Source: Desulfurellales bacterium
Lineage (GTDB): Bacteria > Campylobacterota_A > Desulfurellia > Desulfurellales > Hippeaceae
Direction: 5' to 3'
DNA length: 57,386 bases
NCBI GenBank assembly: GCA_027035575.1
Contig: JALVUQ010000033.1
Location: 1 to 57,386, forward strand
Shown one piece after another: positions 52,082 through 56,646 of this stretch. Position 1 is the stretch's first letter, and every line of letters starts with the position of its first letter. Under the pieces are notes generated by a model. It had not been told where the DNA came from and made no database searches. It worked only from the letters and a program-made list of their open reading frames with translations. Position numbers and translations under genes: made by a program.

Positions 52082-52104
52082 GGCACAAACTCTGCTTTTG
52101 TGCC
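52082..52104 (-). terminator. Hairpin after the WSC-domain gene
   Basis: GGCACAAA and TTTGTGCC form a perfect 8-bp stem with a 7-nt loop, about 30 bases after the stop of the exported-protein gene. The T-run after it is poor on either strand, so it may be a weak terminator or an RNA end protector. Confidence 0.5.
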
Positions 52105-52132
52105 TATAAAAAATTGACACGCCAAATATTAA

Positions 52133-54067
52133 TTATCTAACTTTGAAAGAAACTACATCCATTTCCTTACCGTTTAGCGTTATTCTTACTCTGTATATTC
52201 CCGCTGGCCAGTCCCTATCGCTCTCAATTCTAAAATTGACATATTTGTCTTTTTTAGATGTCTTATTAACAAAAATGGTTTTTGCTCCTATCGGGTAATC
52301 TTTGTTTGGCATAACATAAAACCATTCAGCCTTTATTTTGCTGCCCTTTGGCAGCATATAAACCGAACAGGTCAAGTTTATGTAGTGTTTTTTAGAATTT
52401 AGATATTTAGGGAATCGGAATGATATGTAATCTTGTTTGTTTTGATATGCGGCACATTTGTCTATACTGTAGCTTACCGATTGGTTATTGTTTGCGCTTC
52501 TACAGTTAGCATACGCGTTTCTTGCAGAATCATACTCTATTTTTGCCCTCCTTGCCTCAGGCGTATTGCCTTTGCCCTTACTTATTATGTTGGTCAGCTT
52601 GTTGTATGCCCTTACAAACCTTCTGTAGGCATCTTTGCAGTTAAGTTTTTTATTGACGTTTGGCTGTGTATATATTTGTTTATGTTTTTTTGGCGGAATT
52701 ACAAATCTTCTGCCCGTACAGGTTATATACTTAAACCCGTCACAAAAGCTTTGATTGCATATTTTGCCGCTGCCTATCACATAAGTGGGTGATTTTGCGC
52801 CAATGTCGTAATCCTCTTCAAAGGCTATTGCCCTTGTGAATCTCATCTTCCTGCAAAACGCGTCGGCAGCACCCTGCCCGCAATCTTGCGCCCAAAGTCT
52901 GCACCAATCCAATCTATAGCCGTTTATCGTCGGGTATCTAAATGTTTTTGTGTTATTTGAAGATATATGTTTTATACCTGATATACAGCAGCTTTTTCTA
53001 ACTTGATTGGGTATAGAACCTTTTAGCCAGCATCTTGCCTGCGGCCCTTGAATTGTGTATGGCTTTACGTATGTCCACGCCCTACATTTCGGGTCTTTTT
53101 TGCAGGCATTTTGGCAAAGCCTGTAATCCGGATAAGGTAAATTGAAGCTTTTGTAATCCAGACCGGGCCTATCTGTATTGACCTCAACTCCACTGCCATA
53201 GTTAACTTTTTGTATGTTTAGGCGCGCAACATCATATATGCCGTTTGCCCAACTACCGCCGCATATTTTTGATTTATCACCGCTGCAGTGCATATTGCAG
53301 TTTGCAGCCCGCCCGTATTTTCCATACCTGTTTCCGCAAAAGCAGTATCCGCTGTACTGCACACCTGCATATCTATAGCCCCTTCTTGCGCATTCCCTCA
53401 TGCACAAACTCGGTGTCATTCTATCACTTCCAAAACCAAAGGCAGCCAAATCCCTGCCCCTTAGACCGAACGGGTCGCCCTGGTCTTTGAAGCAACCTAA
53501 GTATATATAGCTGTTTTTTGGTTTGTATGAGCTGCTGTTTTGGTTATTATTGAGAAAATTTTCTCCGCTTTCGGCTGTGTTATAAACGGTTTTGTTATTT
53601 TGCGCATATCTTTTTATGTATAGAGATTTCAAAAGTATGTCATAGTCAGCCCGACTTAATATCTTTGCTATTTTCCACCTGCCGTAGTGATTTTTCTCAA
53701 GTAAAAATACAACTTCAGAGGCGCTGTTGTACGTTTTATGTGTAGCAATACCCGTAATCACGGATTTTGTATAAATATCAACTATTGCACGATTGCCAAA
53801 TATATTCATTCTTTTTATTTTTATGTTTATAAAACGCTGATTTAGAGATTTAAACACCAAAGAGTAAATTTCATACTCCTTTTTGCCAAAAGTTGTAAAA
53901 TGCACCTTTATCCAGTTGATATCTTTTCTTTGTACCGCTTTGAAGTAATTTGAAATTAAACCGCCTACTCCATTATTTAAACCGTTTGTTAAGGCTAAGC
54001 TGCGGTTTAACAGAAAGAAATTTAAAAAACATAATACCAATATTAAATACACAATTTTTCTTCTCAT
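52133..54067 (-). CDS. Exported protein with NTF2-like, WSC and PAN/Apple-like domains
   Basis: A 644-residue protein with a signal peptide (residues 1-26). Residues 32-150 look like an NTF2/SnoaL-type fold. A WSC domain covers 188-280, with eight cysteines (192, 222, 226, 242, 244, 257, 261, 269). WSC is a carbohydrate-linked domain best known from fungi and animals. A PAN/Apple-like domain follows at about 293-366 (cysteines 318, 322, 328, 346, 360, 361; KCRAWTYV and GPQARCWLK). A third Cys-rich unit at 385-451 has DWCRLWAQDCGQGAADAFC. A helical part (475-525) and an Ig-like end (545-644) complete it. The start is right at the stop of the previous gene (TAAATG). It is probably a surface or periplasmic binding protein. 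Confidence 0.85.
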   Translation of the reverse strand: MRRKIVYLILVLCFLNFFLLNRSLALTNGLNNGVGGLISNYFKAVQRKDINWIKVHFTTFGKKEYEIYSLVFKSLNQRFINIKIKRMNIFGNRAIVDIYTKSVITGIATHKTYNSASEVVFLLEKNHYGRWKIAKILSRADYDILLKSLYIKRYAQNNKTVYNTAESGENFLNNNQNSSSYKPKNSYIYLGCFKDQGDPFGLRGRDLAAFGFGSDRMTPSLCMRECARRGYRYAGVQYSGYCFCGNRYGKYGRAANCNMHCSGDKSKICGGSWANGIYDVARLNIQKVNYGSGVEVNTDRPGLDYKSFNLPYPDYRLCQNACKKDPKCRAWTYVKPYTIQGPQARCWLKGSIPNQVRKSCCISGIKHISSNNTKTFRYPTINGYRLDWCRLWAQDCGQGAADAFCRKMRFTRAIAFEEDYDIGAKSPTYVIGSGKICNQSFCDGFKYITCTGRRFVIPPKKHKQIYTQPNVNKKLNCKDAYRRFVRAYNKLTNIISKGKGNTPEARRAKIEYDSARNAYANCRSANNNQSVSYSIDKCAAYQNKQDYISFRFPKYLNSKKHYINLTCSVYMLPKGSKIKAEWFYVMPNKDYPIGAKTIFVNKTSKKDKYVNFRIESDRDWPAGIYRVRITLNGKEMDVVSFKVR

Positions 54068-56341
54068 TTAATCAACCTCCTTCCAGATTCTAATTCCTAC
54101 TGTCTTTATACGTGATGTTGAGTATCCGTCAGAGTCGGTTATTTTAACGGATATGGGAATGAATACTATATCTTTATAACTATCCGAAATTTTTCTGTAT
54201 TGTTTGTAAATATTATATGTCGTTTTTGCGTTTTCGTATATGGCTTTCATAAGCTCCATTTGCAGGCTTTGCCCTAAACCTGTTTCCGCCTTTTTTATTA
54301 AATCTACGACATCGTTTGTTAAAAACGCCCCTCCTACAACCCAATCGGCAGATGACACGTAATCCTTTTTTGTATTATGGAGAAAAGATAGTGTAGAATT
54401 ATAATATTCTCTTGTTCCAAAGGCTAATTTTGAGCTACCATAAACCGTTTCGTGACTTATTTTGTTCGTTATGGTTTTTGACACAAACTTTCCCTTCATT
54501 TTTCTCATCTGTTCAAACGAACTCCCCTCGTTAGCGACAATTAACACACTCATAGCAACTCTCATATTGGTTTCTAAAAAATCTTTCCAGACCTGAGGCT
54601 GTTTGTTTAAATCCATTCCGAGCTGCCCTGATGCAAAATAGAATTCAAATTCATTTCCTTTATATCCGTATTGGTGAAAAACGGTTTTATAGATTTTTCC
54701 GCCTTTTATTTTGAATCTGCCGTAGCCCATAAGCTTTATGTTGAATGTACTGCCGTCCAAATCTTTTATAAAGATTTTTGATGGTGTGGTCTGCCAATGT
54801 TCCGCATCCATGCCGCCGGGTAAAAGGAATTTTACAATCTCGGGAAACGGGCTTTTAAATTCTATGTTGAATGAGCCGACTACTCCTGAGTTTTTCATTA
54901 GGATTATTTGAGACTCAATGGGAAAGTATTTTTTTGCATCTGTTATATCATTAAGCCTGTTTTTTATAACCTTCGGAGTGAGAATATTAGCTATAGCTAT
55001 GCCTCTCGAATTTGTTCTTATCGTGTTTGTGAGTGTGGGATGCGTTATGTAGTTAACATTTTTACCATTGTGCGTGAAACTTTTATAAGATAACAGGTAA
55101 ACCTTGCTCTTTAAGGGTTTGCCGGTTGCATCCGTTAATCTAATCACCAGCTTCTGGTATCTTCCGTTTGCTATGAATTGTTTGGATAAAACTTTTACTG
55201 CAACGTGTTTTGGCTTTTCTTTTAAATACAAATTGAGACTAATAAGTGCCTTGTATCTACCTTTAGGACTTACTGGTAAGAGTTTTGCATACTTGCCTTG
55301 AGCATTGCTTGTCAAAAGATATTTCCTTCCTTTAAAATTTACTGTTATATTTGCAAAAGGTATAGGTTTGCTTTGAGATGAACTTAAAACTGCACCTTTT
55401 ATAATTACTTGTTTAATAGAGGAAACATCCACTCCTCGTTTTTTAAGTGGATAGTTCAAGTCGTAATGCGTCGCCAATGATTCAAAATCAGGGTGGCTTA
55501 CCGAAATTAAAACGTCCGTATCTACCGATTGTTCTGCTGATTCTTTCGATTTTCCCGATATGGATGGGTATAATTTATCAATCTTTTTTGAATATAGGTT
55601 TAACAGATTTTGCATTCTTCTTTTACCGTTTACGCAATTGGTTACTTTTTTCGGGCATTGATTTGATTTTTTAAACCAGCTTACTACTCCTGATACGTAA
55701 ATAAAAAAATGTCCATTTTTTATCATAGCTATAGAATAAGAAACCGATTTATTAAAAACTGTTCCATTGTAATTCTTATCAATAGTAATCTGTGTCTCCA
55801 TAATGGAGTTTTTCGTTCTTTCTTTTATAAATTTTATGATATGTGTATTGGGTTTACTAACACCTGAATCTTTCCATACTTTATCCTTGTTATATTTTTT
55901 GTAATTTTGCCACCATCCTTCAAGCACATCTCTTGCATCTTGCGGATTTTTGTAGTAATCAATCAAAACTTTAAACTCCGTTCCAATATCGCAATAGATG
56001 TATTTTTTCCTATTTCTCAAAAGTGGCAAATCTTCACTGCATCTAAAAGACTGTGACAAGAAAGCAAGGCTCTTGGATGTAGACGGTCTCAGACCGCTTT
56101 GTTTGAATGTGGGCAGTAGGTTTATTTTTGCCGCTTCTTCTTTAGTTAGAGCCAAGTTGCGCATTAACTCTTCTATTTTATCCGTAAATGTTTTTTCACC
56201 GGCAAGCTTCATTCTGTGCGGATTGCCGCCAGCAAAAGTTAAAGTTGACGAAATGAATATAGAAATCAAACCCATAAAAACAATTTTCATAAATCCCGTT
56301 TTAATCTTAGGCTGTTTAAAAATACTTGCATATGTTTTCAT
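54068..56341 (-). CDS. Large exported protein of unknown function with carboxypeptidase-regulatory-like repeat
   Basis: A 757-residue protein. A basic N-terminus and a hydrophobic stretch ending in TLTFAGG (near residue 37) form a signal peptide. The first 280 residues have two Cys pairs and no match I recognise. At about 305-360 the IKGAVLSSSQSKPIPFANITV and SNAQGKYAKLLPV segments look like a carboxypeptidase-regulatory/CNA-B beta sandwich, and a second one may follow to about 460. The C-terminal 290 residues are unrecognised; the end (VFIPISVKITDSDGYSTSR) is again beta-rich. AGGAGG lies seven bases before the first ATG, which I use; a second ATG 17 codons later would give a shorter signal peptide. 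It forms an operon with the WSC-domain gene. Confidence 0.75.
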   Translation of the reverse strand: MKTYASIFKQPKIKTGFMKIVFMGLISIFISSTLTFAGGNPHRMKLAGEKTFTDKIEELMRNLALTKEEAAKINLLPTFKQSGLRPSTSKSLAFLSQSFRCSEDLPLLRNRKKYIYCDIGTEFKVLIDYYKNPQDARDVLEGWWQNYKKYNKDKVWKDSGVSKPNTHIIKFIKERTKNSIMETQITIDKNYNGTVFNKSVSYSIAMIKNGHFFIYVSGVVSWFKKSNQCPKKVTNCVNGKRRMQNLLNLYSKKIDKLYPSISGKSKESAEQSVDTDVLISVSHPDFESLATHYDLNYPLKKRGVDVSSIKQVIIKGAVLSSSQSKPIPFANITVNFKGRKYLLTSNAQGKYAKLLPVSPKGRYKALISLNLYLKEKPKHVAVKVLSKQFIANGRYQKLVIRLTDATGKPLKSKVYLLSYKSFTHNGKNVNYITHPTLTNTIRTNSRGIAIANILTPKVIKNRLNDITDAKKYFPIESQIILMKNSGVVGSFNIEFKSPFPEIVKFLLPGGMDAEHWQTTPSKIFIKDLDGSTFNIKLMGYGRFKIKGGKIYKTVFHQYGYKGNEFEFYFASGQLGMDLNKQPQVWKDFLETNMRVAMSVLIVANEGSSFEQMRKMKGKFVSKTITNKISHETVYGSSKLAFGTREYYNSTLSFLHNTKKDYVSSADWVVGGAFLTNDVVDLIKKAETGLGQSLQMELMKAIYENAKTTYNIYKQYRKISDSYKDIVFIPISVKITDSDGYSTSRIKTVGIRIWKEVD

Positions 56342-56370
56342 AAAAAAACCTCCTTATTGTGCGAAATCTT

Positions 56371-56385
56371 GTTAATTCAATTAAC
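56371..56385. promoter_or_regulatory. Palindrome upstream of the exported-protein operon
   Basis: GTTAATT-C-AATTAAC, perfect 7-bp arms, 30 bases before the start codon. Its place between the promoter region and the AGGAGG suggests an operator. It is AT-rich, so chance is possible. Confidence 0.45.
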
Positions 56386-56646
56386 ATACTTCATTTTTAT
56401 GCCGTCAAACCAAGCAACATTTAATCCCTGATGCAGATACGGTTATAATAAAGATCTCATCAATACACCAAGAGCAATTGATATGTATAAAAAATTTTTA
56501 AAGTTCCACTTTTTTATTGCCGATTTTATATAAAATATACTTTAATTTGTCAACTAAAGTTTATTTATTATTTTTTAAGTCGGAACAGAGATATCTAACC
56601 CTAAATTTATTAATTTTGGCTTGATAAGCAGCTTTAATAACCGTAT
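56386..56646. other. AT-rich intergenic region
   Basis: About 260 bases without a gene between the exported-protein operon and the amidase, both on the minus strand. Several TATA-like stretches near 56525-56545 could be promoter elements of the operon, but none has a convincing partner box. No terminator with a clear T-run was found. Confidence 0.5.

Follow-up and report, generated by a model that had tools for sequence, protein, structure and literature searches.

A conserved, modular two-gene unit of partly known domains in Hippea-like Desulfurellaceae

We analyzed a 57,386-nt stretch of DNA from a Desulfurellales bacterium (the window) and found that two adjacent genes, A and B, constitute a real, conserved and modular two-gene unit in which partly known domains occur in a new arrangement. 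Comparison of the sequences strongly indicated that both products are exported and that the two genes are inherited together. Function as a binding pair is plausible but unproven. The reading that we favor, tentatively and at slightly less than an even chance, is that A and B form an exported two-protein complex of Hippea-like Desulfurellaceae with a fixed joint and an exchangeable binding surface.

Gene A (54068..56341, 757 aa) and gene B (52133..54067, 644 aa) are both encoded on the minus strand. The stop codon of A abuts the start codon of B as TAAATG (54065..54070, minus strand), an AAGGAGG motif lies just 5' of the B start, and the two form a tightly spaced pair that is probably coupled in translation. 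Inspection by eye indicated that the N-termini of both A (...MKIVFMGLISIFISSTLTFA-GG) and B (MRRKIVYLILVLCFLNFFLLNRSLA-LT) are signal-peptide-like. An earlier, sequence-only reading of this DNA had placed the two open reading frames here, end to end and each with a signal peptide, and the coordinates, the junction and the N-termini bore this out.

The relatives that we compared were Desulfurellaceae MAGs together with G009, presumed to be Hippea maritima MH2T; the genome of the window is G000. The C-terminal core of A (residues 305-757; 54071..55429, minus strand; alignment A1) was the only part of the protein common to all family members. These last ~450 residues aligned throughout and were 28-71% identical to A of the window, while the lineage-variable N-terminal region (about residues 40-300) was of several types that HMM comparison could not relate to one another. 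The core comprises a carboxypeptidase-regulatory-like sandwich (about residues 305-385), an Ig-like region (about residues 385-500) and a PGG/KDLD segment followed by a helical stretch and final strands (about residues 500-757). The sandwich had already been proposed from the sequence, and we did find a match (residues 314-369, E 5e-5), but it fell below the Pfam cut-off for CarboxypepD_reg-like domains (PF13715/PF13620; 23.7 vs 32.2 bits), as did those of the homologues. A and its paralogues weakly matched carboxypeptidase-regulatory-like and Big_1 sandwiches around residues 305-500, but stayed below the curated cut-offs, and the remaining C-terminal ~250 residues of A had no match. With nothing in NCBIfam and sub-threshold matches only in Pfam, the A core represents a previously unannotated protein family. 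Residues 501-550 of A of the window were 90% identical to A1 of H. maritima and 72% identical to A of G010, and residues 551-600 were 82% and 66% identical, respectively; the blocks just upstream (residues 301-500) were 22-56% identical. Since synonymous sites in residues 501-600 were as diverged as elsewhere (pS 0.61-0.76), the conservation there reflects constraint at the protein level, and gene conversion was rejected as its cause for the distant pairs.

B starts with a signal peptide and a putative NTF2-like N-domain (about residues 30-155; with the signal peptide, 53603..54067, minus strand; profile A4). These are followed by a WSC domain (residues 189-271; 53255..53503, minus strand), a PAN_4 domain (residues 298-349), a six-Cys domain (about residues 370-452), a helical hairpin with one Cys pair (about residues 477-522) and an Ig-like C-domain (about residues 535-644). 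Both Pfam assignments were above their curated cut-offs, with E 2e-18 and 66.7 vs 27.8 bits for WSC (PF01822) and a full-length match of E 2e-17 and 63.7 vs 27 bits for PAN_4 (PF14295). The eight WSC cysteines (192, 222, 226, 242, 244, 257, 261 and 269) were kept in all homologues that cover them. These cysteines and a full match to the 82-position profile liken the domain to those of fungal Wsc1-type sensors and of Kremen1, which was the best solved-structure match (E 2e-10). Unlike those proteins, B is bacterial and exported, carries NTF2-like, PAN_4 and six-Cys domains and is paired with A. By eye, the signal peptide was the only hydrophobic segment visible in B, which thus lacks the membrane-spanning segment and cytoplasmic tail that follow the WSC domain in a fungal Wsc-type sensor. 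The position of PAN_4 directly behind WSC is likewise a feature that sets the B family apart from other PAN_4 proteins. The N-domain may resemble NTF2-like (ketosteroid-isomerase-like) proteins, given its predicted helix-helix-helix-four-strand order (pLDDT mostly 31-66) and a weak Foldseek match to 3d9r, but it had no significant Pfam match and the confidence of the model was low. Mature B contains 24 cysteines in even groups (8 in WSC, 6 in PAN, then 6, 2 and 2), and with one substitution these were kept in every homologue having the module, which argues for disulfides and hence for a location in the periplasm or outside the cell. No anchor is evident in either protein. The genome encodes a type II secretion secretin above the curated cut-off, so that release of A and B from the cell would be possible.

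A profile of the A core built from alignment A1 matched 7 of the 25 genomes of the phylum (G000, G002, G009, G010 with two copies, G013, G014 and G015). Among 386 genomes sampled across the domain, the only strong match outside the phylum was in G192 (E 5e-30; confirmed by hhalign, E 3e-23), and the other, weak matches covered mainly the sandwich. After this sole strong homologue (L065:9849-12400) comes a long stretch of N, which would hide any B. The N-domain of B, searched with profile A4 (the first ~150 residues) in 61 genomes, occurred in exactly G000, G002, G009, G010 (twice), G012, G013, G014 and G015. It lay directly 3' of an A core in eight loci (the window, G002, G009, C11 and C13 of G010, G013, G014 and G015) and thus in 7/7 A-core genomes of the phylum, the genes abutting, overlapping or being separated by up to ~15 bases (G013). 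The sole exception was G012, where B is on a contig of 3.2 kb, with no A in the ~1 kb that precedes it; an incomplete A, comprising its first 113 residues and an adjoining frame, was present at a contig end. Those genomes of the family that lacked A altogether also lacked the B N-domain. Independent occurrence in most genomes, which the sequence-only reading had named as the outcome that would count against it, was sought for the A core and the B N-domain and was not found. Its proposal that the two exported products act together is favored by co-occurrence and adjacency (8 loci, 7 genomes), but the WSC part of B occurred without A in three genomes, indicating that the N-terminal domain of B, not WSC, defines the partnership.

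In those three genomes (G006, G008 and G011), WSC-PAN blocks reside inside other proteins of 1635, 551, 549 and 375 aa, the 549-aa protein being cut by a contig end. The 1635-aa protein of G006 (L046:9964-14871) looks exported and ends in WSC-WSC-PAN-six-Cys modules that are up to 83% identical to B; neither A nor the B N-domain was found in that genome. WSC (PF01822) was detected in 11 of 290 genomes, each of them from this family, and 14 control genomes had none; eukaryotic sequences were covered through the PDB only. We offer gain of the WSC domain by lateral transfer as a suggestion only.

The operon read lipoprotein-A1-A2-B in H. maritima (L038), A1-A2-B in G002, A1-B in G013 and A-B in the window. 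In G014, contig C147 ends inside lipoprotein-A2 and contig C74 starts with the end of A, followed by B. The genome of the window has a homologue of the lipoprotein (34% identity) on another contig (G000:C16; L091:377-2121), where it lies directly behind a 264-aa NTF2-like-looking protein. The B copy at L040 (286 aa) consists of the N-domain and the Ig-like C-domain without WSC or PAN, and the copy at L039 has a different C-terminal sandwich, by eye like that of the 551-aa protein of G008. The N-termini of A and the interior and C-terminus of B were swapped between loci; what every complete pair shared was the A core and the B N-domain alone. In six relatives (G002, G011, G012, G013, G014 and G015), MAG contigs break off or begin within A or B genes (L035, L036, L037, L041, L042, L043, L015 and L044), which suggests repeats or strain variation at the locus.

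Where dS was finite, comparisons of A and of B gave dN/dS of 0.08-0.19, indicating constraint at the protein level; these figures are rough since dS was near saturation in several pairs. The C-terminal end of A and the N-domain of B tracked each other only loosely: a mirror comparison of 7 pairs yielded r = 0.55, and in G013 an A1-type end is paired with an N-domain of the type found after A2. Between the window and G002, A and B differed more than the adjacent flgH/I/K at both classes of sites (pS 0.52-0.62 against 0.35-0.40), a comparison in which orthology of the A and B copies is unsettled, given that G002 carries two B fragments that are not identical, one next to flgH and the other after A2. 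These values suggest that the locus may undergo faster turnover or exchange than flgH/I/K.

The flagellar genes lie ~145 bases 3' of B on the same strand, in the order flgH, flgI, a flgJ-like gene and flgK (FlgH named by Pfam, the others by eye). A hairpin, GGCACAAA...TTTGTGCC, is present between B and flgH (52083-52105), without a T run after it on the minus strand. Because the pair sits just upstream of flgH in the genus, with flgH following B in the window as well as in G002, A and B might be accessory parts of the flagellum. We regard this as very improbable, since in other relatives the neighbors of the pair include IS-like integrase, pyrB-like and PEPCK-like genes, among others, and no homologues of the flagellar genes of the window lie beside it, and since A and B diverge far more than flgH/I/K between the window and G002 (71-82% vs 94-98% identity). 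The differing neighbors indicate that the cassette has moved, and its flagellar neighborhood is incidental.

On the 5' side, a spacer of ~305 bases separates A from the end of an amidase gene. By eye, this spacer contains a possible sigma-70-type promoter, TTGACA-17-TATAAA (56525..56553, minus strand), ~185-210 bases 5' of A; it is missing from the promoter scan list because TATAAA fails the rule that position 6 be T. The palindrome that had been noted at 56371-56385 is real and slightly longer, comprising 17 bp (TGTTAATTCAATTAACA, 56370..56386). A palindrome as good arose in ~9% of Markov copies of the same spacer, no second exact copy exists in the genome, and it was absent upstream of the homologues; it therefore carries no evidential weight. 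We rejected it as a regulon operator given its single exact copy and lack of conservation, and it is near chance and probably non-functional.

In the complex that we favor, the C-terminal core of A would grip the NTF2-like N-domain of B as the fixed joint, and the N-terminal domain of A would form the exchangeable binding surface together with the WSC, PAN, six-Cys and C-terminal sandwich modules of B. This surface would most likely recognize glycans or proteins as ligands, on the surface of the cell or within a biofilm, a ligand type that we take from what WSC domains, known binders of protein and carbohydrate, reportedly bind elsewhere (PMC9024836). We infer surface location, ligand binding and physical contact of A with B, the last from co-inheritance. 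However, the shared segment is contiguous DNA, and co-inheritance may thus reflect linkage alone. The strongest rival holds that each exported protein binds on its own, the two being co-transcribed from one cassette and traveling together by linkage without touching, a reading that we consider rather unlikely although far from negligible. The single contiguous conserved stretch, the solitary WSC-PAN blocks in other proteins of G006, G008 and G011 and the weak co-variation of A and B all agree with it. On the other hand, genes that are independent should have come apart more often, and the same two modules are adjacent in eight loci despite different neighbors and flanking modules.

The WSC domain and the export of both proteins would also suit a periplasmic envelope-stress or ligand-sensing pair, in which the Cys-rich part of B senses and the sandwiches of A provide stiffness or pass the signal on, on the model of fungal Wsc-type sensors, and the lipoprotein of some operons could tether such a complex. 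Neither A nor B has a transmembrane or signaling domain, however, and no regulator gene is conserved alongside, which makes sensing improbable. A broader form of the complex reading, about which we are doubtful, is a polymorphic surface recognition system almost confined to one thermophilic family, with a joint of A core and B NTF2-like domain, interchangeable heads and laterally gained WSC-PAN. H. maritima is a cultured organism in which the partner rule, A core with B N-domain, could be put to the test. The unit also extends WSC, a domain familiar mainly from fungi and animals, to sulfur reducers of vents, which face an insoluble electron acceptor, and this makes a role in attachment a testable idea. 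H. maritima needs elemental sulfur (PMC3156395), a need that leads us to speculate that the pair attaches to sulfur or mineral particles. Among the papers searched, none dealt with WSC domains in Hippea.

AlphaFold models of A and B had mean pLDDT values of 34 and 41 (alignments of 4 and 3 rows), too poor for conclusions and most likely reflecting too little sequence depth. Foldseek of the low-confidence B model returned mostly low-scoring sandwich matches, the top one not meaningful. Rfam gave no match, viral contigs none to A or B and plasmids none to the A core, and PADLOC, PHROGs and NCBIfam gave nothing beyond noise for A or B of the window. The minimal B homologue (L040:10530-11390) matched the tail of the PADLOC model PDC-M02B (E 7e-6), possibly through composition. 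In the plasmid search, the six-Cys domain of B weakly matched a single protein, of 194 aa, from Legionella adelaidensis.
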